Source: a virus
DNA length: 46,332 nt
IMG/VR virus record: IMGVR_UViG_3300031227_016760
Location: 1 to 46,332 of that record
Direction: 5' to 3' (one strand)
Below are positions 1,425 through 46,332 of this stretch, piece after piece. Made by a program: the position numbers and the translations under genes. Under the pieces are notes generated by a model. It was not told the DNA's origin. It worked only from the letters and a program-made list of their open reading frames with translations, and ran no database searches. Position 1 is the stretch's first letter; every line of letters begins with the position of its first letter.

Positions 1425-4252
1425 TGTTCTTCCTCATTCAGTTTTTCGATTACGTCATCCAGATTGGGCCAAGGTCTTACTTCGTTGATTAGATCGGTCT
1501 GTTTTTTCCCGCTATCGCGGTATTTTCGATACAGAGAGGTGGCGGGTTTTTTCGTTTGCTCAGTTACGATTTTCGTCCGGTCGACAACGATGATCGGCAC
1601 ACCCTGCTTTTTCGCCTCGATCGCAAACCAAACATCGGTCATGCCGCAAACCGGGCAACTCGAAAGATCGAATTGAAATGCTTCCGTGTGGAAGCCGCAA
1701 AATCCGGTTCCTGCGCCATGGACTGCGGTATCCTTGGTGACAAAATGATAGATTTTTCTGTTGCGGAAATAATCGGCAATTTTATGCGGAGGAAAAACCG
1801 AACCATGAATGCCGATTATCGCTTTTCGATTGTATTGATCAATTTTTTCAACCATCTCTTCCAAAGCGGTTGCAATTGGCAACACATCGTCGTCAAGCGA
1901 AAAATGGTATCCCTTTATTTCCTTTGTCCAGAAAAATTTCCCGTTGTCGGAAATGTCGCCGTGGTCCTGGCTGCGAGCAACTGTGATTTTGGCATGGTTC
2001 AGAAAATCGGGAACACGAGAATAATTATTCAAATAGACATTCAGCCTGTCGCACTGCGGTAAAATTCGAGAAACCGTCTCTCGCAGCAGTCCGCTCCGTG
2101 ACGGAATAGACGCGAGAGACACGGTTATTTTTTCGCAATCATGCTCGAATCCGACCATATTTGCATGCCACGTTCTTTCCTTGTGCATCTCTGATCTGCA
2201 GGGGACGGTCTTGACCAGAGCCTTGATCGGCCGATAAACCTTGAACCCTGCTTTGCGAATGCGACGGGAGAGTTGTTCGCCATCGCCGGCGCTTCGGGCC
2301 GGGTGGCCCTTCCAGCGATTTTTCGGGATGGGGGTTATGGTGTAATTCACCGCCTCCAGACCGGCGCGATTCATCATCCATTCACCGTCAAACCATCCGC
2401 AATCGTCCACTTCGGCATTTCCGTAACGCAAACGCTTGGGCGGCGGCGCTCCCCATTGCCCTATTTTGGTTCGGGGCAAGTCGTCCACAACAATATTCAG
2501 CGCGGCCTTGTTTTTATTTCGTATCGCATTCCAGACGGCGAATAGCTCAACAAAGAAATTCGAGCAAAGTTTGTTGTCGTCCTGCAAAGCGATCATGTAT
2601 TCGACTCTGCACATCTTCGCTTCCGCAAGAAACTCATTGATCGTTTGCCAGAACTCTTTTTTTCCGTAGTTCCAGGAATGGCGATGAAAAGTTATCCATT
2701 CGTGGCTTTCGATGAAGGGGCAAACTTCCGCATAGTCGGCGGATGAATAATCGTCATTAATAAAAACGCACGTTCCGACCGGCCGCATTTGCTTGATTTG
2801 CCGCAGTAACTTCAACAGCAGCTTGGGCCGATTGAACGTGGGAATGACCACGATAATTCTTGGAATGGCAAGCAGCTTTTTGCACAGGGCGGTTTGAACC
2901 GAATCGTCTGTTTTTACCCAATCGTAGATCGCAGGGTATTTTTTCGCCTGTTTCAGCCAGAACTTTTCCCGTTCAATGCAAATAAACGGAATCCCGTTTT
3001 CCCGCGCCCACAGGGCAAAATACGGGTCGACCATGTTGGGGTGCCCGATGCGGTCGAAAATCCCATGCGGCGTCAAGTCGCTGTGAAACGCCATCATGCC
3101 GGTGCCGACGATATCCACCAGGCAATCCTCGGCCACTGCGGACTGAAAATTGTGCGTCTTCGGCGATTTGGCGTAACTGATAAACGGCGTGGGCAAATCA
3201 TACCCGTGAAGAGCAACGACAGCGCGGCGCTGGTATTGTTCGACTTTGGCGACCATCCGCTGGGCATAATCGGGCGGATAGGAAAGATCGTCGTCGCCAA
3301 TGATGTGGTAGCCGCGATGCTTTTTGACGAACCACAGTTTGCCCCGTGCGCCCTGGTCATCATGATCTTGACTGCGGGCGATTTCGATCTTTTCATGGTT
3401 CAGAAATGCCGGCACTTCTTCGTAGCAATTCAGGTAGACGCAGATTTGATCCACTTGCGGCAGCATCTGCTCGATCGCCTGTTTCAGCGATTCGACGCGA
3501 TTGGGCATCGACGCCAGCGAAAAGATAATCGGATCCGCTTTGGGCGGCGCCTTCACCGGCGCTTCCTGTTTTTTTGCCTCATTTGAGGGGGCAGGAGAGG
3601 AAGCGGCGCTATTGACTGGTGAAATCCGAGAGCGGGTTGTCTCGGAGCGAATGAACGGATCGGCGACGGACAGAACTTCCATCCCTTTGGCGCATAATTG
3701 CTCGCCAAGATACTTGACCGGATCGGCACATGGCGGGATGGAGTAACCGAACGTTTTCAACATGGCCGGGATGCAACAGAACAAAGGGCTGAGCGATGAA
3801 GATTCACACAGTTGCAGTTCGCCGTAGTTTCGCCGTTTTGCGGGTGCCGGATTTTCCGGCAGTAGATCGAGCAGCATTGCCGCCGGCGCATTGATTCTGT
3901 GCCAATATTTTTCAATCAGCGAAAAGAAGTTGCTGCAAATCTCAGCATGATCGTCCAGAAAAACGAAGTAATTTGCACTGGAATTTTTAGCGATCTCAAA
4001 CCGTCGATTCCAGATCTTCCAGCGTTCGCCGTCGCCGTGCCGAGAGGAAAGCGATTCGAAATGAATCCACGATTTTCCCTTGAAAGTGCGGTGAACGTAG
4101 TCGTAATCGGCAGTCGATTTATTGTCGATGACCGAAACGTCAATCTGATAATTGTCGTCGTTTTGCTGCCGTGCAATCTCGGCCAGCAATAGGCGAAGTT
4201 GTTCTGGATTGTTGCAGGTGGTGATAAAGACCTGGAATGTAGTCCGTGCCAT
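1400..4252 (-). CDS. Four-module glycosyltransferase (GT-A type, A-B-A-B)
   Basis: 950 aa with four GT-A-like modules in tandem. A1 (residues ~1-205) opens TTFQVFITTCNNPEQL and has the acidic metal motif FLDDH near 97. B1 (~238-458) opens IIFSLASMPNRVESL and has GDDDLSYP. A2 (~460-700) opens RIIVVIPTFNRPKLL and has LQDDN. B2 (~706-940) opens ITVSLASIPSRS and has LDDDVLP. B1 and B2 are clearly homologous (PQVDQICVYLN against PQCDRLNVYLN; ARSQDH in both), so an A-B unit was probably duplicated. A Pro/Ala-rich linker joins A1 to B1. Each module keeps its acidic motif, so all four could be active and build an oligosaccharide in sequence. It begins 4 nt after the DUF6765 gene, in a late-motif operon. 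Donor and acceptor are unknown. Confidence 0.85.
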   Translation of the reverse strand: MARTTFQVFITTCNNPEQLRLLLAEIARQQNDDNYQIDVSVIDNKSTADYDYVHRTFKGKSWIHFESLSSRHGDGERWKIWNRRFEIAKNSSANYFVFLDDHAEICSNFFSLIEKYWHRINAPAAMLLDLLPENPAPAKRRNYGELQLCESSSLSPLFCCIPAMLKTFGYSIPPCADPVKYLGEQLCAKGMEVLSVADPFIRSETTRSRISPVNSAASSPAPSNEAKKQEAPVKAPPKADPIIFSLASMPNRVESLKQAIEQMLPQVDQICVYLNCYEEVPAFLNHEKIEIARSQDHDDQGARGKLWFVKKHRGYHIIGDDDLSYPPDYAQRMVAKVEQYQRRAVVALHGYDLPTPFISYAKSPKTHNFQSAVAEDCLVDIVGTGMMAFHSDLTPHGIFDRIGHPNMVDPYFALWARENGIPFICIEREKFWLKQAKKYPAIYDWVKTDDSVQTALCKKLLAIPRIIVVIPTFNRPKLLLKLLRQIKQMRPVGTCVFINDDYSSADYAEVCPFIESHEWITFHRHSWNYGKKEFWQTINEFLAEAKMCRVEYMIALQDDNKLCSNFFVELFAVWNAIRNKNKAALNIVVDDLPRTKIGQWGAPPPKRLRYGNAEVDDCGWFDGEWMMNRAGLEAVNYTITPIPKNRWKGHPARSAGDGEQLSRRIRKAGFKVYRPIKALVKTVPCRSEMHKERTWHANMVGFEHDCEKITVSLASIPSRSGLLRETVSRILPQCDRLNVYLNNYSRVPDFLNHAKITVARSQDHGDISDNGKFFWTKEIKGYHFSLDDDVLPIATALEEMVEKIDQYNRKAIIGIHGSVFPPHKIADYFRNRKIYHFVTKDTAVHGAGTGFCGFHTEAFQFDLSSCPVCGMTDVWFAIEAKKQGVPIIVVDRTKIVTEQTKKPATSLYRKYRDSGKKQTDLINEVRPWPNLDDVIEKLNEEEQCCPAKTA

Positions 4253-4256
4253 CGTC

Positions 4257-5270
4257 TCACATCAGGTTGAAGTTGATTTGCGAAAGTACCCAGTCCCGCT
4301 GCGCTTGGGCTTCGGCGTGGAACCACAGCCAGTCGCTACCGCCGAAAAATGCGCCGTTGTGCACGGCTTTGCTGCGCCAGGCGTGGCGGTTATATCGAAG
4401 GTCGATGTCGGTAAAGAATCGGCGCCACAATCGGTGCGCACGGCATCGGGGGAAAAGATTCGGGCATTTCGGGCGGTGTGAGAAAAGCATGAAAAGTTTA
4501 TTTTCCAGCAACTGCCATTCGTCCTGGCGGAACGCGCGTCCCGTCGCCCGGCACAGGTGGATAAATATCTTTTGGGCCGCTACGCAGAAATCGTCCGGGT
4601 TGTTTCGTTCTTCCGTTTCGCCGCTGGCTGCGTAGCGGTAGCGCCAAATGCGCCAGGGCTGATCGGGGACAAGGCCGGCCTGGACGTGGCCGATGAAGGA
4701 AAAGGCGTCGGAAATTTTGCCGTATCGGTGGTGTATCGGCTGCCAACCATCGGCCTTTTTCCATTCCTCTATTTCGGCCAGATCGTTTTCCGGTTGACAG
4801 TTGCGACCGCTGAATCCCGCGTGGGCGAACGAATCGGCGTAGGTATGCAGGGCGATACCCAACTTGACCAGCGCCCGCCGGCGGTCGGGTTGAATCACTG
4901 CATGACCATGCTGGTCGACGGCGATTTCGAGCAGCTTTTCCACCATCTCCGAATCGGCGACGGTCAACCAATCGGCCCCGGGATTGCCGGGAATGAAATG
5001 AAACGGGATGTAGGTCTTTCGCTGCATATCGAGCGAGGGTGCTACCAATTGGCGCGGGCTGAAATTGGCCGTGCAAACCGGCTCAAGCCACCCCTGCTCG
5101 TCCAGGCGTAGGCCGTCCAGGTTCGGTAGGCCATCAACGCGAACGGGACGGTGCTCGGTGGCGTCGTCCACATGCTGGCTGGCGTAGGCGATGCGCTGCG
5201 CATCTTCCGGCGCGAACCCGGCCTTTTCGGCCAGAACGCGAATGCAGCAATAGTGGAAGGCGAAGTTCAT
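4257..5270 (-). CDS. DUF6765 family protein, zinc phospholipase C-like fold
   Basis: 337 aa. The N-terminus (MNFAFHYCCIRVLAEKAGF, then AQRIAYASQHVDDA) and the central LGIALHTYADSFAHAGFSG match the DUF6765 pattern. That family keeps His/Asp clusters like those of the zinc-dependent phospholipase C / S1-P1 nuclease fold; here they include H6, the HVDD set and HTYADSFAH. Members are sporadic in bacteria and have no proven function that I know of. Its start overlaps the stop of the upstream one-TM protein (ATGA), and the pair follows a late-type promoter motif. That is where a lysis enzyme would sit, and no intact canonical endolysin is recognisable in the window, so a membrane- or envelope-active lysis role is a reasonable guess. 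No signal peptide is visible. Confidence 0.7.
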   Translation of the reverse strand: MNFAFHYCCIRVLAEKAGFAPEDAQRIAYASQHVDDATEHRPVRVDGLPNLDGLRLDEQGWLEPVCTANFSPRQLVAPSLDMQRKTYIPFHFIPGNPGADWLTVADSEMVEKLLEIAVDQHGHAVIQPDRRRALVKLGIALHTYADSFAHAGFSGRNCQPENDLAEIEEWKKADGWQPIHHRYGKISDAFSFIGHVQAGLVPDQPWRIWRYRYAASGETEERNNPDDFCVAAQKIFIHLCRATGRAFRQDEWQLLENKLFMLFSHRPKCPNLFPRCRAHRLWRRFFTDIDLRYNRHAWRSKAVHNGAFFGGSDWLWFHAEAQAQRDWVLSQINFNLM

Positions 5271-28616: not shown

Positions 28617-30098
28617 CTACTTCCCGCATCGAGTGGTTTTCTTCTTTTTCTTCGATGCTTTCGCTTGCAGCCTGGATTCGGCTTTTTTGTAGATTTTCTG
28701 CGCTTCCTGCATCGAGGCTGCCGCCTGGATCTGCTCCACTTCGGTATCAGTCATGCCGAGCAATACCTGGGCGACATCGGCGCCGACAACCTGCGCTCCG
28801 ACCAGACCGATGACATCCTGCGCCGAGAAGAACCGCTTGATGCGGATCGGCTCGTCGTCGATTGCCGCGTCTTCGTCTTCCGGATCCAGACCGCGCCGGC
28901 GCTGCAATGTTTTCCGGCTGATAAGGCCGCGATCATACAATTCCCGATCTTCACGGACGGACCACTCTTCTTCGTCCAGATCCAAGCCAGTGAAAATGTA
29001 TTTGAGTTCATGTTCGGAATCCAGGCCGATGGACTGCTTGACCTGTTCATCAAAAAGCCAATCCAGGAAAATGCGCACATCGATGCACAACTCGCGGATC
29101 TGATAGCGCGTGGCCTTGAGAACCACCCGGCTGTTGCCGTAACCGCTACCCTCGCCGGTGACAAAAAACGGAATGAACCCCATGGCAATGGCGATCTCGC
29201 CGATAAGGGACGCGGCCTTGGAAGAGGTGTCGAGCACCACTCCATCGGTGCCGTAGGTTTTGACATCCCAGTGCCACGGGACAACCAATCCTTGATTTAA
29301 TTCCTGATTTTCAAGCAGCTCTTTCGCCGCGCTCAATTCTTTCTTGCCCGGATTAATAAGTTTATTTCCGAATAACCCGCCCAGGCGAATGAGGCGAAGC
29401 GGATTAGTGAATCGCTTGGCAATGGCACGGTCGGCGCGGCGGTAGTGTTCCAGGCTGGGCACCTTGTCGAAAGTGCGGCAAATCAGGCTATTGCCACGTT
29501 CGTCCCAGTCGTCGGCGTCGAACTGCATGAATAAAATATTAGCCAGTTGTTCCGGCGAGGATATCACGTTGGTTTCAGTGGAAGTACGTTTGCCGTCTTT
29601 AATTGCGTACTGCACCAACTTGGCCAGCTCGCCATCATCCCAGGTGGGCACCACGGAAAGCGGATTAATCAACTGCAATCGCTTGATCTCGTCATTATCC
29701 CAGACTTTATGAGCAATCGCTTCACCGCGGACAAGCTCGTTCGTGATAAACCGGCCGATGCGTTTGTCGAGGTGAATCCGTCGAGTGAATCTGTCAAGCG
29801 CTTCCTGGTCTTCCTTGTTGGACGCCAGAACTTGTACCCCATCACCAACCACAAAGGAGCGTAACAGCCAGATACATTTGCCTATGACATCGATGCGGCG
29901 AAAGTAGTCATTGGCCATTGCGACACGATCTTTCCACTCCTTCGGATTCGTGGTTTGCGTGTCATCGAATTTGGAGGCGGCAAAATTGGCAATGGATCCA
30001 ATGGCAACGTTTCTTAGAAGTTCAACACCATCCTGCAGGTAAACCATACCCTTGCCGAGTAACCCGCTGTCTTGAGGTGGTGTGTTTTTCTTTGCCAT
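28617..30098 (-). CDS. Portal protein
   Basis: 493 aa, about the usual length for SPP1/Mu-type portals. It shows RIDVIGKCIWLLRSFVVGDGVQV near the N-terminus, LQLINPLSVVPTWDD, SLEHYRRADRAIAKRFTNPLRLI, the GIAIAMGFIPFFVTGEGSGYGNSRVVLKATRYQI stem region, and a helical basic C-terminus (KAESRLQAKASKKKKK). It is the packaging vertex for TerL and DNA. SD is weak (GAG). It is first after late motif copy C and divergent from TerL. Confidence 0.85.
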   Translation of the reverse strand: MAKKNTPPQDSGLLGKGMVYLQDGVELLRNVAIGSIANFAASKFDDTQTTNPKEWKDRVAMANDYFRRIDVIGKCIWLLRSFVVGDGVQVLASNKEDQEALDRFTRRIHLDKRIGRFITNELVRGEAIAHKVWDNDEIKRLQLINPLSVVPTWDDGELAKLVQYAIKDGKRTSTETNVISSPEQLANILFMQFDADDWDERGNSLICRTFDKVPSLEHYRRADRAIAKRFTNPLRLIRLGGLFGNKLINPGKKELSAAKELLENQELNQGLVVPWHWDVKTYGTDGVVLDTSSKAASLIGEIAIAMGFIPFFVTGEGSGYGNSRVVLKATRYQIRELCIDVRIFLDWLFDEQVKQSIGLDSEHELKYIFTGLDLDEEEWSVREDRELYDRGLISRKTLQRRRGLDPEDEDAAIDDEPIRIKRFFSAQDVIGLVGAQVVGADVAQVLLGMTDTEVEQIQAAASMQEAQKIYKKAESRLQAKASKKKKKTTRCGK

Positions 30099-30134
30099 TG
30101 GCGCTCAGCTTATTTCCAAGCGGCGCTCGGAGGG

Positions 30135-30167
30135 GAGTGGTCGGGGAATTCAGAAAAAAATACCCTT
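30135..30167 (-). promoter_or_regulatory. Late promoter/activator motif, copy C (portal side)
   Basis: Same layout as copy B: AAGGGTATTTTTTT then CTGAATT, then a diverged core CCCCGACCACTC. It ends 36 nt before the portal ATG. The 33-bp window matches copy B except for a short stretch in the middle of the core. Copy C' lies beside it on the other strand. Confidence 0.65.
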
Positions 30168-30171
30168 CAAC

Positions 30172-30190
30172 TCTGAATATCCGAACCACT
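30172..30190 (+). promoter_or_regulatory. Late promoter/activator motif, copy C' (TerL side)
   Basis: TCTGAATATCCGAACCACT on the plus strand, 35 nt before the TerL ATG. With copy C it forms an inverted pair 4 nt apart, a bidirectional promoter or activator site for the divergent portal operon and TerL. The core CCGAACCACT is identical to copies A and B. Confidence 0.6.
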
Positions 30191-30225
30191 GTGTAACCAA
30201 TGCACATTTGCAGCACATTCGGTGC

Positions 30226-31815
30226 ATGAACGTTACCGACCTCCAAAACCTATCGCCAGAAGAAAAACAGAAAGTAATCCAGGTTTTCGGCTCAGGCTGG
30301 CGTTTCGGCGAGACATTTTTCGTAAACAGCGATGGTTCACCCCGCAGGTACTGGGACCACCAAAAAGCAGAACTAGACGATCCCCACCCTCGCAAGATTC
30401 ACTGCGACGGCACCGAAACTGGCAAAACGATTTTGATTGCTACATCGATTCTGCATTGGGGCGCCACGACTGTCGGCCAAGTAGGGCTTTGCGTTGCGCC
30501 TCTGTCCGGGCAATTGGCTCACATCATCGGCGAGGTCGAATTCCAGATTGCAAAGTCGAATTTCGTTCGTTCTTTGATGATTCCCGGCCAGTATCACAAG
30601 AGCCAACCTTACTATCGTATTTTCTTCGCCGGCGGATCCAGCGTTATTTTCTGCCCAGCAAGTAGCGACGGTAGTTCATATGACGGCGTTCATGCCAATC
30701 GGATCTGGGTAGACCAAGCATGCTCGATTCCGAAAAAAGCCTGGTCGGTTTTGTTCCAACGGCAGGAGCCTGGGTGCGTATTCGGCATTTACAGCTACCA
30801 CGATGGTCGGCGTGATTCCGAATACCACGCGATCCTATCGGAAGCGGTGGAGATCCCCACATCTTCTAGCGAGTGGAAAAAATATCACTGGTCTATGACC
30901 ATTCTGCCTTATCCCCGCTGGTCAAAGCAGCGTGAAAAGGAAAAGATCAAGGAACACGGAAGCAAAGAAAGCTCTGAATACCAGCGGATGGTTCTCGGTC
31001 TTGTTGGCAAACCAACTTTCTCGGCCTTCGATGTTGAATCCCTCTTCTCCTGCCAACAGGAGATACCTCAATACGAAACCCTCGTAATTACCAATGAAGA
31101 ATTCGAGGGGTGCGAAACGGAAGACGACATCGACAAGGCCGTCGCCAGCCTAATCGGAGCGATCGGCAGCCCCGGCCGTCCCGGGGAGAATACGTGGGGC
31201 GGGGCCGACCTGGGCTATACCAGCGACCCGGCCGAAATCACTGTAGCCCGTGAAAAGGATGGTTTTGTTACTAGTCGCCTGCGCATCCATCTTGAGAAGG
31301 TTCCCTACACGACGCAAGCAAAGATCATCGGACACCTTGATCAAAACTTCAAATTCTCTGCCTTCGGCATCGACCGTGGCGGTAATGGCATGTCGGTCAT
31401 GCAGATGCTGCAAAACAACGACGAATTTCTACACCTTCCGAATCGAAAAGAGCGGTTCCTGGGTTTCGATTTCGGCGGGAACCTGGTGATTTCCGTAGAT
31501 GATGAAACAGGAACCGAAGAAAAGCAGAACACCAAGGAATTTGCCACCAGCTTGATAAACGGGATCATGCGCCGCCGGCGGTGGGCTATCCCCAAGGACA
31601 AACAGGACCCGGCTATCGAGGAACAATTCATTTCGCACACCTACGTAAAATCGAGTCGCCATATAATCTATGGCAAGAAAAACGATCACATCATCGATAG
31701 CTACCGCGTTCTGTTTTTAGCCCGCGAGACCGTTACCCGTCTACGTGATCTGGACGGCGGTATTGTCGAAGAACCGTGTACCATCGGCATCGCCACCGGG
31801 CCGGTATTCGACTAG
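30226..31815 (+). CDS. Terminase large subunit
   Basis: About 529 aa. ATPase domain: Walker A GTETGKT (~62-68); Walker-B-like RIWVDQA (~159-165), where the usual catalytic Glu after Asp is Gln. The C-terminal RNase H-like nuclease has GGADLGYTSDPAEI (~325), FGIDRGGNGMS (~382) and NDHIIDSYRVLF (~487), matching the three acidic sites. It pumps and cuts phage DNA at portal. Unlike the other head genes it is on the plus strand, divergent from portal. ATG 30226 is chosen because the 48 codons upstream overlap the promoter motifs. SD is poor. Confidence 0.85.
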   Translation: MNVTDLQNLSPEEKQKVIQVFGSGWRFGETFFVNSDGSPRRYWDHQKAELDDPHPRKIHCDGTETGKTILIATSILHWGATTVGQVGLCVAPLSGQLAHIIGEVEFQIAKSNFVRSLMIPGQYHKSQPYYRIFFAGGSSVIFCPASSDGSSYDGVHANRIWVDQACSIPKKAWSVLFQRQEPGCVFGIYSYHDGRRDSEYHAILSEAVEIPTSSSEWKKYHWSMTILPYPRWSKQREKEKIKEHGSKESSEYQRMVLGLVGKPTFSAFDVESLFSCQQEIPQYETLVITNEEFEGCETEDDIDKAVASLIGAIGSPGRPGENTWGGADLGYTSDPAEITVAREKDGFVTSRLRIHLEKVPYTTQAKIIGHLDQNFKFSAFGIDRGGNGMSVMQMLQNNDEFLHLPNRKERFLGFDFGGNLVISVDDETGTEEKQNTKEFATSLINGIMRRRRWAIPKDKQDPAIEEQFISHTYVKSSRHIIYGKKNDHIIDSYRVLFLARETVTRLRDLDGGIVEEPCTIGIATGPVFD

Positions 31816-41314: not shown

Positions 41315-41621
41315 CGCGGATTCTCGCAATAGTCGTTTCCAGGTCCTGCCGTTTGGCGCGTGTGCCCAGGCGCAGGGTGTCGGCTGCCAGGGCGCGGATA
41401 TCGCTCAAGTCGGTTTGCAGGGTGGAAGCCATGTCGGCCAGTTGTTCTTTTTCACGGACAACCTCGCCGAAACGCTGCCGGGCCACGGCGTGGGGATCGC
41501 GCATTTCCTGCCGAATCCGATTTGTATCCGCTCTCCCGGCCAAGTAAAACCGCCAGCTATCCAGCCAGTGCCACCAGCGCGACTGTTTATTGATTTGTGT
41601 CCGTCTCACGATTTCAGCCAT
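41301..41621 (-). CDS. Helical protein between initiator and DnaB (106 aa)
   Basis: MAEIVRRTQINKQSRWWHWL, WRFYLAGRADTNRIRQEMRD, then VAREKEQLADMASTLQTDL, a long amphipathic helix. No family recognised. The start overlaps the initiator stop (ATGGCTGA). Its place directly before DnaB could fit a helicase loader or adaptor, but it has no AAA+ motif. Confidence 0.6.
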   Translation of the reverse strand: MAEIVRRTQINKQSRWWHWLDSWRFYLAGRADTNRIRQEMRDPHAVARQRFGEVVREKEQLADMASTLQTDLSDIRALAADTLRLGTRAKRQDLETTIARIRDGEW

Positions 41622-42759
41622 TTTCTTTTTTCTCCATTTCCGCTTTTGCATCCCGCACGGCGTCGTGAAGAACCGACGCCAGCCGCTTCTTTCGATCCTC
41701 AGTGGAAAGATCACTGAATTGTTTCAGGAAGCCACGCCCGGCCAAGTAAAGCAGCACCTCGGCGGCCGGGTGTCCCATGGCGACTACAACCTGATCGAAG
41801 TTATTGCGGATGCCGCCGGCGGCTCGCCATTCGTAGATTTTGGTGAAGTTGTCCGCGATAACCTGGGCTTCCGGATCGCCAAACGACGATCCCGCCGCCT
41901 GCCCCGCGCCTTGCAATTCTTCGGGGATACCATCGGCGTAGGTTCCCCATGTGCCGTCACGCCCGAAAAAATTAGGGCATGTTTTCCGGTATTGGGCTTC
42001 CGTACTCTTGCGATCGCAGACATCGGAGTAGCTCTCGATTGCCGCCAGTAGCCGATGAAACGCCTCACTACTTTTCAGTAGCTTCTCGATGTTTTTTATC
42101 GCTCTCGCCTTGTCGTGCGGATTTTTGTTTCGCCGGATGAAATGCTCGCGGAGAGCGTGGGCCTTTTGCTTGCGGGTGAACTTCTTTTCCGGACCGGCGA
42201 GAATGTTTTCGAGGGTTGGCTCTTTGGCTGGTGGTTGCCTGGGAGAATCGGGAAGATGAAACGTTTCATTTCCTGATGTATTGTTTTGTATTGTCTTGTC
42301 TTGTCCTGTCAACTGTTTCTGTAACGTATCACGCGACGTTTCAGGTAACGTTTCAGGTAACGTTTCAGGTAACGTTTCACCTTCGGTTTGTTTTTTCTTT
42401 CCTCGATGCTTTTTCAGGCGGTTTTTTGCTTTCTCCTTGGCTCGCATCATTCGCCCGCAACCGTCCTGGTTCCAATCATGTAGGGCTAGTTTTTCTCCAT
42501 CCCTGTCGATCCATTCGGTGTCGATCATCGCATCGAAAAAATGCACGGCTTTCGGTAATCTCAGTTGCAAAATGCGTGACAATTCTTCGTCGTCGTCGTG
42601 CAATTCCGTGACATCTCCGTCGGGATAAAATTCGTAGGCTTCCGCCCACAAAAGAACAATTCGCGGCCAAACGTCGAACGTTTTCATGTTTAACAGCTTC
42701 GCAAGTCGTCTTGTTTTCGGGTGTCTGTGCATCTTTGGATCGACCGGGATGAAATCCAT
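41614..42759 (-). CDS. Replication initiator with internal iterons
   Basis: 381 aa. The N-terminal ~120 residues (MDFIPVDPKMHRHPKTRRLAKLL, then VWPRIVLLWAEAYEFYP, then WIDRDGEKLALHDWNQDGCGR) look like the wHTH of phage replisome organisers (DnaD-related). A linker follows with GETLPETLPETLPETSRDTL, encoded by 12-bp iterons. The C-terminal ~170 residues (KARAIKNIEKLLKSSEAFHRL, LAAIESYSDVC) are helical, as in DnaD-like ends. The layout, with iterons inside the initiator, recalls lambda O. SD GGAGGAG supports ATG 42759. Confidence 0.75.
   Translation of the reverse strand: MDFIPVDPKMHRHPKTRRLAKLLNMKTFDVWPRIVLLWAEAYEFYPDGDVTELHDDDEELSRILQLRLPKAVHFFDAMIDTEWIDRDGEKLALHDWNQDGCGRMMRAKEKAKNRLKKHRGKKKQTEGETLPETLPETLPETSRDTLQKQLTGQDKTIQNNTSGNETFHLPDSPRQPPAKEPTLENILAGPEKKFTRKQKAHALREHFIRRNKNPHDKARAIKNIEKLLKSSEAFHRLLAAIESYSDVCDRKSTEAQYRKTCPNFFGRDGTWGTYADGIPEELQGAGQAAGSSFGDPEAQVIADNFTKIYEWRAAGGIRNNFDQVVVAMGHPAAEVLLYLAGRGFLKQFSDLSTEDRKKRLASVLHDAVRDAKAEMEKKENG
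42257..42380. other. Predicted phage replication origin (iterons)
   Basis: Five contiguous 12-bp iterons at 42321-42380 (GTAACGTTTCAG consensus; the first two are variants), plus a perfect dyad TGAAACGTTTCA at 42257-42268. Between them is a T/G-rich repetitive segment (TTGTCTTGTCTTGTCCTGTC) that could melt. The iteron half-site AACGTT matches the dyad. Located in the linker of the initiator gene, so the protein may bind its own coding DNA. Confidence 0.65.
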
Positions 42760-42783: not shown

Positions 42784-43470
42784 CTACCGCGTGAACACTT
42801 CGTTGAGCAGTTCCGCGCTGACGGCGAACGGTTCGCCATTGCCGATAAAGTCGTCTTCCGAATCTTTTTCGTCGACGAGTTCAACCAAGAAAACTTTCTG
42901 ATCGGCGGTCGATTTGAGGCTGACTCGAAAGTGCTTTTCGGCGGGATAGGTGACATCATCGACAGGAAGGTCGTCGGTCAATTCGACCTCATCGCCCTCT
43001 TCCACGCTGTTGAATAAATTGCCGGAAGGTGCACTGGAAGTCGTCTCTTCCGTTTCGGGGGCTTGGGCGGCGCCCTCGTCGTCATCGAGGGCTTTTTCGC
43101 TGTCATCATCGAGGGGCATTTCTTCCTGCCCCGGCAGCGCTTCGCCGTCCTTTTCGTCGCGCCGTTGACGGGCCTGCTCGTTGAGTATCATCGAATTGTT
43201 GCCGAGCAACGTCACCGAAGGGTCCATGGACTCCAAAAGGGCCAGGTTTTTCGGAGTGCGGCTGACAAGCACTTTCAATTCAATGTGACCGCCCTTTGCC
43301 TTAAAGTCACGGTCAATCTCAGCGGGAAGTGCGCCGAAGGTGGCGGCGATTTCAGCCATCTTCTGCCGATAGGCTTTTAATACGGCCTGAATGTCCACAA
43401 AGCCTTCCTCGTTGAGCCCGGCCTCGATCACCTCTTCGAATTGGCCGTTGTCAAGAATGGGGATACTCAC
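42784..43470 (-). CDS. Acidic early protein of unknown function
   Basis: 228 aa. N-terminal ~100 residues fold-like (SIPILDNGQFEEVIEAGLNE, IQAVLKAYRQKMAEIAATFG, GGHIELKVLVSRTPKNLALL). Then a long Asp/Glu-rich linker (MPLDDDSEKALDDDEGAAQA), then a beta C-terminal part (KVFLVELVDEKDSEDDFIGN). The start is GTG 43470, overlapping the ASCH stop, with SD GGAGAAG. Possibly a DNA mimic or ssDNA-binding helper, but that is a guess from charge alone. Confidence 0.6.
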   Translation of the reverse strand: MSIPILDNGQFEEVIEAGLNEEGFVDIQAVLKAYRQKMAEIAATFGALPAEIDRDFKAKGGHIELKVLVSRTPKNLALLESMDPSVTLLGNNSMILNEQARQRRDEKDGEALPGQEEMPLDDDSEKALDDDEGAAQAPETEETTSSAPSGNLFNSVEEGDEVELTDDLPVDDVTYPAEKHFRVSLKSTADQKVFLVELVDEKDSEDDFIGNGEPFAVSAELLNEVFTR

Positions 43471-44204
43471 TGTTCTTCTCCTTTTCGTTCTGAATGGGGT
43501 TGATTGGGATCGATCGACCGTAGCCGACCGGCTTGTTTCAATTGTTGGAATGCGTTGGACTTCTCGGCCCCGATTGGTTCCCGGTCCGTGCGCTCGTTGC
43601 GCATGCCAAGGAGGCCGGGGCGCCAAATGACTTCCGGCTTGAAATATGGGTAGTAAATCGACTCCACCAGGTGCGGCGGTACTTTCCAGTGCCACACGCG
43701 CAATCTGCCGTTCGCCTTGATCGGTTCGGGCAACGGCATCGGCTCGCGGAATACCCAGCCGAACACTTCGGCGTAATGCTTGAACCACATAATATCCACG
43801 GTAGTGACATGCCGGTCGGTGAAGCCCTCTTCGGTCGCGACGGTTTTCACGTCACCGTTTTTCAGGGCAATCACCGCCGCCAGCCGGACCGTACCGAGGA
43901 TGACGCCACGGTGCTGCATTTCCGGGGCGTTGCGGTCGAAAGTGACCATCGTTTTGACGTAGGGGTCATCCAATTTCCGCTCTTCCACCTGCCACGGGTT
44001 CTCGGTATCCCACCGCTTGCCGGCGTGAATGCCGATGCGTTGGCCGAGGTATTGTTCGGACGGGGACCACGAGCGGTTCTCCGCGGACTTGTGAAACAAC
44101 TCTTCGGGGTAGCCGCGTTTTTGCGCCCCGAAAATAATCAACGAAGCCCACGGCTGCATGATGCTCAGGATCGGCGCAGTGATTGGGTTGGGATCGGGTT
44201 TCAT
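43467..44204 (-). CDS. ASCH-domain protein
   Basis: 245 aa. ILSIMQPWASLIIFGAQKRG, then SAENRSWSPSEQYLGQRIGIHAGKRWD matches the ASCH pattern (SI.QPWA.LI..G.K..ENR.W...). ASCH/PUA-like proteins bind RNA or modified nucleotides. The middle keeps the beta barrel (GVILGTVRLAAVIAL, TVDIMWFKHYAEVFGW). Phages often carry them in early operons. ATG 44204; the in-frame upstream extension covers the 36-aa membrane gene and is rejected. Confidence 0.75.
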   Translation of the reverse strand: MKPDPNPITAPILSIMQPWASLIIFGAQKRGYPEELFHKSAENRSWSPSEQYLGQRIGIHAGKRWDTENPWQVEERKLDDPYVKTMVTFDRNAPEMQHRGVILGTVRLAAVIALKNGDVKTVATEEGFTDRHVTTVDIMWFKHYAEVFGWVFREPMPLPEPIKANGRLRVWHWKVPPHLVESIYYPYFKPEVIWRPGLLGMRNERTDREPIGAEKSNAFQQLKQAGRLRSIDPNQPHSERKGEEQ

Positions 44205-44206
44205 CG

Positions 44207-44317
44207 TCAACGCCCCTTCCACGCCTTGAAGGCCACAAACGCCGCGCTGCAAGCCAGACCGGCAAAGCCGAGGAACAACAGGCCGACTCCGATTTTCATC
44301 ATCGTTTCCGCCGCCAT
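44207..44317 (-). CDS. 36-aa single-TM protein
   Basis: MAAETMMKIGVGLLFLGFAG, then LACSAAFVAFKAWKGR. One TM helix with a basic C-terminus. ATG 44317 couples as TAATG to a 14-codon ORF (44316-44360, MQTLKNGHAS...). Tiny early membrane proteins of phages sometimes modulate host membrane functions; no specific role is visible. Confidence 0.5.
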   Translation of the reverse strand: MAAETMMKIGVGLLFLGFAGLACSAAFVAFKAWKGR

Positions 44318-44374
44318 TACCACGTCCCCGCACTGGCGTGTCCATTTTTCAGTGTTTGCATTTTGAAGTCCCTC

Positions 44375-44548
44375 CTACAGATTTCGAAGTTTCACCGCAG
44401 CCAAAAGCCACAGCAGGCCGGCGGTCGATACAATCCAGGCCAGCAACGGCAATTCGGCTCCGGCGAAGACAAAAGAAATCATCCCCAGCGAAAACGCCGC
44501 CCGGAAACTGACCTTTGTCGGCGGATTGAATTTTGGTGTTTTACTCAT
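44375..44548 (-). CDS. 57-aa two-TM protein
   Basis: MSKTPKFNPPTKVSFRAAFS, then two hydrophobic segments (LGMISFVFAGAELPLLAWI; STAGLLWLLAAV). The ATG overlaps the upstream zinc protein stop (ATGA). No family recognised. With the 36-aa protein it makes a small membrane-protein pair in the early operon. Confidence 0.55.
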   Translation of the reverse strand: MSKTPKFNPPTKVSFRAAFSLGMISFVFAGAELPLLAWIVSTAGLLWLLAAVKLRNL

Positions 44549-44793
44549 TGAACCATCTCCAATTTTTTCGATTCGGGTTTTGCCAAGACGATGATCCGCT
44601 TGCGACCGCCCGGGTCCGGATTGCCCCGCGTTACCAGGTGCTCACAACGGATATCGATCACCTGAAACCTCGATCCTTCTTTGCGGGGGATCTCCGTTTT
44701 TTTCGAAAGCATGCATTCCAGGCACGGCGGGTGATCGGTATCGAGATCCCAGTCCGGATGCGCCGCGCAGTGCTGGTAGCGGATCTGGGTCAT
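44545..44793 (-). CDS. Small Cys/His protein
   Basis: 82 aa: RYQHCAAHPDWDLD, HPPCLECML, then a beta segment (RFQVIDIRCEHLVTRGNPDP, RKRIIVLAKPE). The C/H set (HC, H, CxxC, CEH) could bind zinc. No family name. Overlaps both neighbours. Confidence 0.55.
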   Translation of the reverse strand: MTQIRYQHCAAHPDWDLDTDHPPCLECMLSKKTEIPRKEGSRFQVIDIRCEHLVTRGNPDPGGRKRIIVLAKPESKKLEMVQ

Positions 44794-45257
44794 GCAGGAT
44801 TCCCTGCCGGCAGTAATTTGCGAAAATTATCTTCTTTGAGCTTCTGATAAAAAGTCGTATCGATATCCACCTGGGCATAGGCCAGGAAGACTTCGGCGGG
44901 GTCCACCATGCCGGTGTCGATCAACGCAAACTGGGCCTCCAACCAACGTAAAATCTGCCGCCAGGCCACGCGACGTGCTTGCTCGAAATCCGCCTCCTGT
45001 TGTTTCTCTCGGGTACGGTCGGAACGCTTTTTCTGTAAATTTTGAAAAACCGGCTCGATGCGGGCCGGCAAGCGAAACGGCATTTCCACGCCGTCGACTT
45101 CGAACATGAATGAGAGGGACTTAGGCTGTCGGGTTTCCCGATTGTTGGAAATCTGAATTGCCGCAGCACCGACCTCAGTCAAAAACTCCTGAATCTCCCC
45201 AATGGTTTTTGCGGCAGGAATCTGAGTGGTTTCCATGTACAAAGTCTTTCTCGCCAT
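44790..45257 (-). CDS. Conserved phage early protein
   Basis: 155 aa. MARKTLYMETTQIPAAKTIG, EIQEFLTEVGAAAIQISNNR, SLSFMFEVDGVEMPFRLPARIEP, then ARRVAWRQILRWLEAQFALI, GMVDPAEVFLAYAQV. I know this pattern as a conserved hypothetical in many phages (M.RK.LYMETT.I.A..T..EIQ...), without a known role. The two-part fold looks complete. Confidence 0.7.
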   Translation of the reverse strand: MARKTLYMETTQIPAAKTIGEIQEFLTEVGAAAIQISNNRETRQPKSLSFMFEVDGVEMPFRLPARIEPVFQNLQKKRSDRTREKQQEADFEQARRVAWRQILRWLEAQFALIDTGMVDPAEVFLAYAQVDIDTTFYQKLKEDNFRKLLPAGNPA

Positions 45258-45259
45258 GT

Positions 45260-45805
45260 CTATTTTCCTCGTATCTTGAATAGGTCGAAGTTGGTTTTCT
45301 CATTTTTCTGGGATTCGGCAGGCCATTCCTGCGGCCATTCGCCATCGGGAAAATGTTTTTTGATGCTGGATTTGCAGAAAACGGGAACGCCGGCAGATCG
45401 GCATTGGTCAACAGCGCGTTGAATCCATTCACGCTCGGGGGGCTTGGCTCCGGAGCCGGTCTGTGCGCCGATGATCAGCCAATCAATGCCTTTTTTGCAC
45501 TTATCGTCATGATGGTGATGGCGAATGTCTCCGCGTGATCCGTCTTCATGGCGATAGCTATGGCTGTGTTTTTCGTCGCATCTCCATTGGTACGTCAGCC
45601 AACAAGCAACGTCATGACCACCATCAAAGTCCACCGGCCCCAGCGCGGGTTCGTAGCTGGCGAACAGCGTTTTGGCGCCTAGTCTCCGCAGCTTTAAAAG
45701 GTCGGGAATGCGCTTATCGGCATCGCATAGGTCGGCACTCCGCAGGTCTGCGTCCTGCAGGTTTTTAACACTTAAAATAGTTGCGATACTTTGCAAGCTA
45801 TTCAT
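45260..45805 (-). CDS. Pentapeptide-repeat / DUF5131 chimera
   Basis: 181 aa. Residues ~15-30 (NLQDADLRSADLCDADKRIP) contain pentapeptide repeats A(D)LxS. From DKRIPDLLKLRRLGAKTLFA onward it matches the second half of DUF5131 (Gp37/Gp68): ASYEPALGPVDF, DWLIIGAQTGSGAKPPEREW, DQCRSAGVPVFCKSSIKKHF. The N-terminal half of DUF5131 (with its Cys-rich, radical SAM-like motif) is missing. The join falls in CDADKRIP, where repeat-type DNA (CTATGCGATGCCGATAAG) meets the gene. Probably non-functional as DUF5131, but the ORF is open. Confidence 0.65.
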   Translation of the reverse strand: MNSLQSIATILSVKNLQDADLRSADLCDADKRIPDLLKLRRLGAKTLFASYEPALGPVDFDGGHDVACWLTYQWRCDEKHSHSYRHEDGSRGDIRHHHHDDKCKKGIDWLIIGAQTGSGAKPPEREWIQRAVDQCRSAGVPVFCKSSIKKHFPDGEWPQEWPAESQKNEKTNFDLFKIRGK

Positions 45806-45834
45806 TTTTTACGCCTTTCAAACTATCTATTTAA

Positions 45835-46332
45835 TTATCTTACTTTTTTCAAACAAATTAAATAATCTGTGCGAATTTTACCATCCGTATTATATGGAAT
45901 AACCATTCCGCAACTCCGCTCGAACGGAATTAGGGCTTCCCATATTTCCACGCCGCTATAAGCCTCTCGCATCACCCACTCAAGCGTGGCTACATTGACG
46001 CCACAAGCACATGTGCTCGTCGGTAGTTGGTTTACCACCTCTTCAATCACTAGCCCCTTTTCCGGAGTCCAAGGCTGCTTGTACAACGTTGTCCCAAATG
46101 CTTTGTACACAATCCAACCAATATCGTTTTTTTTGAGGTTTTTTAGAGCCCATTCATACGATGAAGTTAAACCGGTTGCTTCACTCAGATTGGCATTCTG
46201 CAGATTGGCACCCTGCAGAAATGTACCTGGCAGGTGGGCACCCCGCAGGTCGGCATCGCACAGGTGGGCTCTCTGCAAGTTAGCACCCTGCAGGTCGGCA
46301 TCGCACAGGTGGGCACCCCGCAGGTCTACACC
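45835..46332 (-). CDS. Pentapeptide-repeat protein with C-terminal domain (5' end outside window)
   Basis: The visible part begins at the window edge within repeats ([52 protein letters not shown]), each A(D/N/H)L. It continues with a ~110-aa domain: [57 protein letters not shown], and [20 protein letters not shown], similar to DUF5758-type ends found with pentapeptide repeats in phages. Function unknown. The DNA repeats are 15-bp units with CTGCAGG/CGATGCCGACCTG words shared with the neighbour gene. Confidence 0.7.

Follow-up and report, generated by a model that had tools for sequence, protein, structure and literature searches.

A DUF5131 gene without its N-terminal half begins with pentapeptide-repeat DNA in a phage contig

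The viral record IMGVR_UViG_3300031227_016760 (IMG/VR) was analysed over its whole 46,332 nucleotides, referred to here as the window. Near one end of the window, next to a gene for a pentapeptide-repeat protein (P0002), lies an open reading frame (P0001) whose product was initially annotated as a few pentapeptide units continued by the DUF5131 family from its middle. The locus raises the question of how the start of a repeat protein came to stand before half of an enzyme, and whether pentapeptide arrays serve more generally as adaptors for recombination and pick up gene ends in this way; the initial annotation had proposed that they may act as adaptors here. The features discussed are collected in Table 1.

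Table 1. Features of the fused gene and its surroundings in the window.
Feature	Position	Strand	Remark
Replication-type protein (putative label)	41614..42759	-	41% identity over its length to that of the sister phage
334-aa protein	42784..43788	-	syntenic with the sister phage, 28–35% identity
phrog_3193 protein, ASCH-like (putative label)	43467..44204	-	syntenic with the sister phage
Fused ORF P0001, 181 aa	45260..45805	-	open throughout
DUF5131 C-terminal half, from KRIPDLL on	45263..45715	-	PF07505 match ends at residue 145, phrog_2045 match at 163
Join GCC GAT (Ala-Asp)	45716..45721	-	common to the pentapeptide unit and the DUF5131 A-D-x-R-I-P motif
Pentapeptide stub, P0001 residues 16–30, LQD ADLRS ADLCD AD	45716..45760	-	two full and two partial units
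Non-repeat start of P0001, MNSLQSIATILSVKN, 15 residues	45761..45805	-	
Candidate Shine-Dalgarno-like AAAGG	45814..45818	-	8 nt before the P0001 ATG; read from the sequence
Pentapeptide-repeat gene P0002	45835..46332	-	cut by the contig end; array 46170–46332, C-terminal domain 45838–46169

Parts of two unrelated families, pentapeptide and DUF5131, are joined in one frame in P0001, and the fused reading frame described initially is confirmed in the sequence. Residues 31–145 match positions 141–214 of 243 in the DUF5131 profile PF07505 with 51 bits (cut-off 28.9), and phrog_2045 matches residues 28–163, so the family is indeed entered from its middle. No second DUF5131 match is found in the window at E ≤ 10, and thus no head elsewhere in it, and the TIGR04471 rSAM_mob_pairA equivalog gives 27.6 of 355 bits, below its cut-off. 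The two to three pentapeptide units that had been described are present as two full units with one partial unit on each side; they do not form the very start of the protein, since 15 non-repeat residues precede them. The region of this start and the spacer (45764–45835) has a GC content of 26%. A promoter scan of 44700–46332 gave no promoter-like site, with 1.6 expected from shuffles, and three terminator-like sites were found in the same region against 2.2 expected.

The stub does not reach the PF00805 pentapeptide cut-off (12.6 of 20.2 bits). It is matched at residues 13–37 by phrog_7713 (E 5e-4), which also matches P0002, and its DNA is 79% identical to the P0002 array in register over 47 nt, which bears out the likeness to the units of the next gene. 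The best identity outside the array and the stub is 55% among 45,679 minus-strand positions, and none of 2000 codon shuffles reached 79%; a resemblance to pentapeptides by pure chance was therefore rejected. The C-terminal domain of P0002 has a GC content of 43% against 55% for the window, and 25 of 920 windows of the same size are as low; Pfam gives no match to this domain at E ≤ 1. Relatives of P0002 occur in ten records, and DUF5131 was not matched in any of these at E ≤ 0.001.

The same place in a related genome is occupied by a whole gene. A sister phage, IMGVR_UViG_3300048839_001709 (G312; 67,603 bp), carries a full-length DUF5131 gene at 59423–60406 (positions 3485–4468 of locus L232). 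It is followed, in the order of the window, by homologues of the phrog_3193 protein (44%) and, at the identities given in Table 1, of the 334-aa and replication-type proteins. A PD-(D/E)XK nuclease and a RecT-like protein (a putative label; no Pfam match over the cut-off) are encoded upstream of the sister gene. The two genomes are largely collinear, with 72% identity for the terminase, 59% for a sheath-region ORF and 47% for DnaB; the sister record is permuted relative to the window, with unmatched stretches (e.g., ~34–36 kb) and a local swap near 30–33 kb. The two genes that separate P0001 from the phrog_3193 gene in the window have no match in the sister, and no PF00805 match is found in the sister record at E ≤ 0.001. 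Because the sister has an intact DUF5131 gene at the same place, a similar downstream order and no pentapeptide match at this threshold, the window appears to carry a derived, headless DUF5131 allele, and the pentapeptide DNA appears to be an addition here. The head is common to the whole DUF5131 family, which also argues for loss, with one sister compared.

A scan with the replication protein for further sisters returned only this record. Single-protein scans of viral_contigs with P0001, P0002 and the phrog_3193 protein gave no close relatives, no DNA similarity to 42784–45254 was found in phages, and the terminase has two distant matches only in 50,697 named phage records. The terminase-like gene of the window (30082–31812) is encoded on the plus strand, and the genes studied here are on the minus strand. 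Among 214 distinct loci, 17 have a phrog_3193-type gene beside DUF5131, each with a match in the orientation of DUF5131, against none of 10 pentapeptide controls; the count was made with a small home-made profile for which four of the 17 loci (L232, L236, L237, L295) were seeds. In one phage record such a neighbour is named “ASCH domain containing protein”.

The half missing from P0001 is the one that would carry the chemistry. In an alignment with 31 full-length relatives, nearly all DUF5131 sequence before the A-D-x-R-I-P motif is absent from P0001, including the columns of the cysteines C19, C23 and C26 (L232 numbering), which are at least 90% conserved. P0001 has no N-terminal cysteine cluster. 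The AlphaFold model of the full-length L232 protein (pLDDT 78.9, pTM 0.76) has spore photoproduct lyase as its best structural match (Z 13.2, rmsd 3.2, 208 aligned residues), followed by lipoyl synthases, SuiB and others, which we take to be radical-SAM enzymes, with mixed TIM barrels from rank 28. A partial TIM barrel together with a three-cysteine cluster, the combination taken to define the radical-SAM fold, was found for L232 and does not apply to P0001. Foldseek gave nothing for this model at E ≤ 0.001, and the DUF5131 profile had one match, at E 0.48, among the sequences of solved structures. Full-length DUF5131 is thus predicted from the model to be a radical-SAM enzyme whose cysteine cluster lies in the lost half, in agreement with the annotated loss of a radical-SAM-like N-terminus. 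In the L232 model, the join position falls at about the start of helix 169–185, after strand 160–166, so P0001 would keep only the last strands. The P0001 model is poor beside that of L232 (pLDDT 56.8, pTM 0.43), with no strands modelled in the stub at this low confidence; both models were built on shallow alignments of 33 and 32 rows. P0001 is a fragment of DUF5131 and not a working member of the family.

We consider it probable that P0001 is the remnant of a phage DUF5131 gene whose first half was lost as pentapeptide-repeat DNA became placed immediately in front of the rest. An ancestor would have had an intact DUF5131 gene at this site, as the sister phage has today, and a pentapeptide cassette would have arrived in the lineage of the window. 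A second repeat stretch would then have been fused in frame with DUF5131 midway along that gene, at the common Ala-Asp, over ~5–6 nt. Most simply, the DUF5131 head and the end of a pentapeptide gene would have been deleted together, and the translation start of P0001 would then probably be the former start of that pentapeptide gene. Since the [4Fe-4S]/SAM half is missing, P0001 is predicted to do no radical-SAM chemistry, and the product is most likely a tolerated, inert by-product. As the sister phage has the whole enzyme at the same place, an accidental joining of genes seems a better description of the locus than a new mechanism. The intact DUF5131 gene is seen in one sister, and the pentapeptide donor was not seen intact.

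The state of the retained half weighs against this account. Its 150 codons are open, and it keeps 30 of the 38 columns with at least 80% conservation among the 145 relatives kept for this count (L106, L133, L147 and short ORFs excluded), three of which score lower. Either the event is thus recent, or something preserves this half and it is still useful. Between P0001 and L232, dN is 0.16 and dS 1.06 over 53 codons, mostly reflecting divergence before the fusion. Between two conserved blocks, residues 68–103 of P0001 form a His/Cys-rich insertion ending in HHHHD..C, which is also found in L021, L022, L023 and L025; in these several DUF5131 proteins it perhaps binds metal.

A survey of DUF5131 ORFs gives the background for the join and for the loss of the head. 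It comprised 240 loci with 214 distinct ORFs, picked by similarity to the retained half and therefore not a random sample. The three-cysteine motif precedes the retained half in 200 of these, and eight are cut at the start of the locus (L047, L063, L133, L167, L241, L273, L307, L310). In the rest, inspection shows the motif in L306, the sequence of L104 is masked, and no motif is present in L106, L147, L158 and L295.

The initial annotation had read a shared word at the join as a sign of repeat-mediated recombination. The 9-nt word in question is common to the repeat stretches of the two genes and is not one that repeat and DUF5131 share. An exact TGCGATGCCGA is present at three sites of the window, of which one is in the stub and two are in the array; no exact match of stub to array longer than 11 nt was seen. 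A join at a shorter word fares better. With 64 of the 214 ORFs lacking a readable motif, 150 relatives could be used, and in 81 of them the join position begins with GCCGA (Ala-Asp codons). An exact in-register run of at least 5 nt with a repeat unit is present within an 18-nt stretch in 83 of the 150, against 12–14% of codon boundaries sharing at least 5 nt with the array in five full-length DUF5131 genes, a similar though not identical measure, and a short microhomology at the join is therefore plausible. To judge from the relatives, the overlap between repeat DNA and DUF5131 was probably 5–6 nt. For phage T4, the accessible text of PMC9391042 describes segmental amplifications bounded by microhomologies of 6–10 bp, as well as deletions that have microhomology on their flanks.

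Since the contig ends 0.5 kb upstream of P0001, two other accounts of the join have to be weighed. A pentapeptide cassette could have been inserted into the middle of DUF5131, leaving the head beyond the contig end upstream of P0002 and a tail that borrowed the start of the insert. The contig does stop inside P0002, the pentapeptide DNA of the window was not found in the sister phage, and the C-terminal domain of P0002 and the spacer are AT-rich relative to a window of 55% GC. A plain insertion alone, however, leaves the second in-frame repeat stub unexplained, and no head is found elsewhere in the window, although the missing part would lie off the contig; we regard this account as unlikely.

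The join could also be a library or assembly chimera that exists in no genome. It is known from a single contig, near the contig end and beside repeats, and the synteny with the sister vouches for the DUF5131 side only. Against this, the exact word shared by stub and array is at most 11 nt and the likely overlap with DUF5131 5–6 nt, and the usual k-mers of assembly are longer than 11 nt. The join is moreover in frame, with a start codon and a motif resembling a ribosome site, and a chimera is improbable.

Selection for the fusion itself is given a slightly lower probability still. The headless half would then have a role of its own, for example in binding the substrate or partner of DUF5131 without catalysis, and the stub would be a tolerated N-terminus. 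The open and largely conserved C-terminal half of P0001 is consistent with such a role, and two further ORFs have lost the head with the C-terminal half open. In L106 (681–1391, a Planctomycetota MAG), an N-terminus of the replication-initiation type (phrog_3926, E 2.9e-8) is followed in frame by a headless DUF5131. The DUF5131 of L295 (1160–1801, a phage contig) starts near WPLPN (profile positions 125–243), with no DUF5131 head upstream, where a phrog_3193 gene lies instead. Unlike P0001, both have other N-termini without pentapeptides and retain ~15–20 more DUF5131 residues. The cysteine cluster is lost in part in L158, and among eight partial matches that were read, L106 included, L224 (189 aa) is without it and L227 has none in its frame; the remaining ones are fragments or divergent. 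In Planctomycetota, the phylum of L106, 72 of 294 genomes have a match. Each headless case is single, however, the P0001 model is poor, and L147, which is broken and carries a stop, shows ordinary decay.

An adaptor role of pentapeptide arrays, which the repeat stub at the join and the place of the join motif among the better microhomology sites might suggest, is rejected as a general rule on the census and is highly improbable, since pentapeptide units begin the retained half in none of the 214 distinct ORFs (eight cut at the locus start), an array lies near just one, and heads are also lost without pentapeptides (L106, L295). As the array test demands four units in a row and, according to a control, would miss a stub like that of the window, a two-unit search was added; it gave 13 matches, spread over 12 of the 214 ORFs, and no match adjoined the point at which the retained half begins. 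The pattern ADLxxADxRIP has three matches in viral_contigs, none in a DUF5131 ORF on reading, and a plasmid search gave 154 records, all below 60% identity, and the 10 matches listed are all named Gp37/Gp68 or DUF5131. The one array within the 3–4 kb flanks belongs to L271, where a pentapeptide gene lies upstream on the same strand, ~0.4 kb from a full-length DUF5131, a layout from which a single deletion could yield such a fusion.

P0001, probably the remnant left by such a loss, can be set beside known systems. With the DUF5131 or phage Gp37/Gp68 family (PF07505, phrog_2045) it shares the C-terminal half, above the Pfam cut-off, and differs in that positions 1–140 of 243 and the cysteine cluster are missing. 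With the pentapeptide-repeat proteins (PF00805, phrog_7713) it shares the units of residues 16–30 and DNA like that of the neighbouring array, and differs in its sub-threshold profile score and in the stub without modelled strands. Searches of the available literature found no paper on the DUF5131 or “Gp37 Gp68” family and listed no report of a pentapeptide–DUF5131 fusion. Among the deletion-born fusions in the accessible text of PMC12803068, yjcO-lysU keeps Sel1-like repeats and has no catalytic domain, and P0001 likewise puts the start of a repeat protein before the last part of an enzyme whose catalytic domains are gone. Those fusions come from bacterial isolates in which the deletion was seen, whereas P0001 is known from one phage contig and its deletion is one that we infer. 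P0001 also resembles the composite viral genes described in the accessible part of a survey (PMC4202312), which are made of segments from unrelated families.

The fusion in P0001 is a fresh instance of an already known kind of composite gene. It offers a clear example of phage genes turning composite, with the start of a repeat gene on a decapitated enzyme and the intact gene in a sister phage, and a warning that matches to DUF5131 can be catalytically dead fragments. A further reading, which we consider unlikely, is that the radical-SAM half has been lost from DUF5131 several times, in phages as well as in bacteria, and that the intact C-terminal half is retained as a binding module without catalysis, its start supplied by any N-terminus that happened to be near. 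Should headless forms of DUF5131 turn out to be maintained, this would suggest that the C-terminal half of this phage radical-SAM family has a role other than catalysis.
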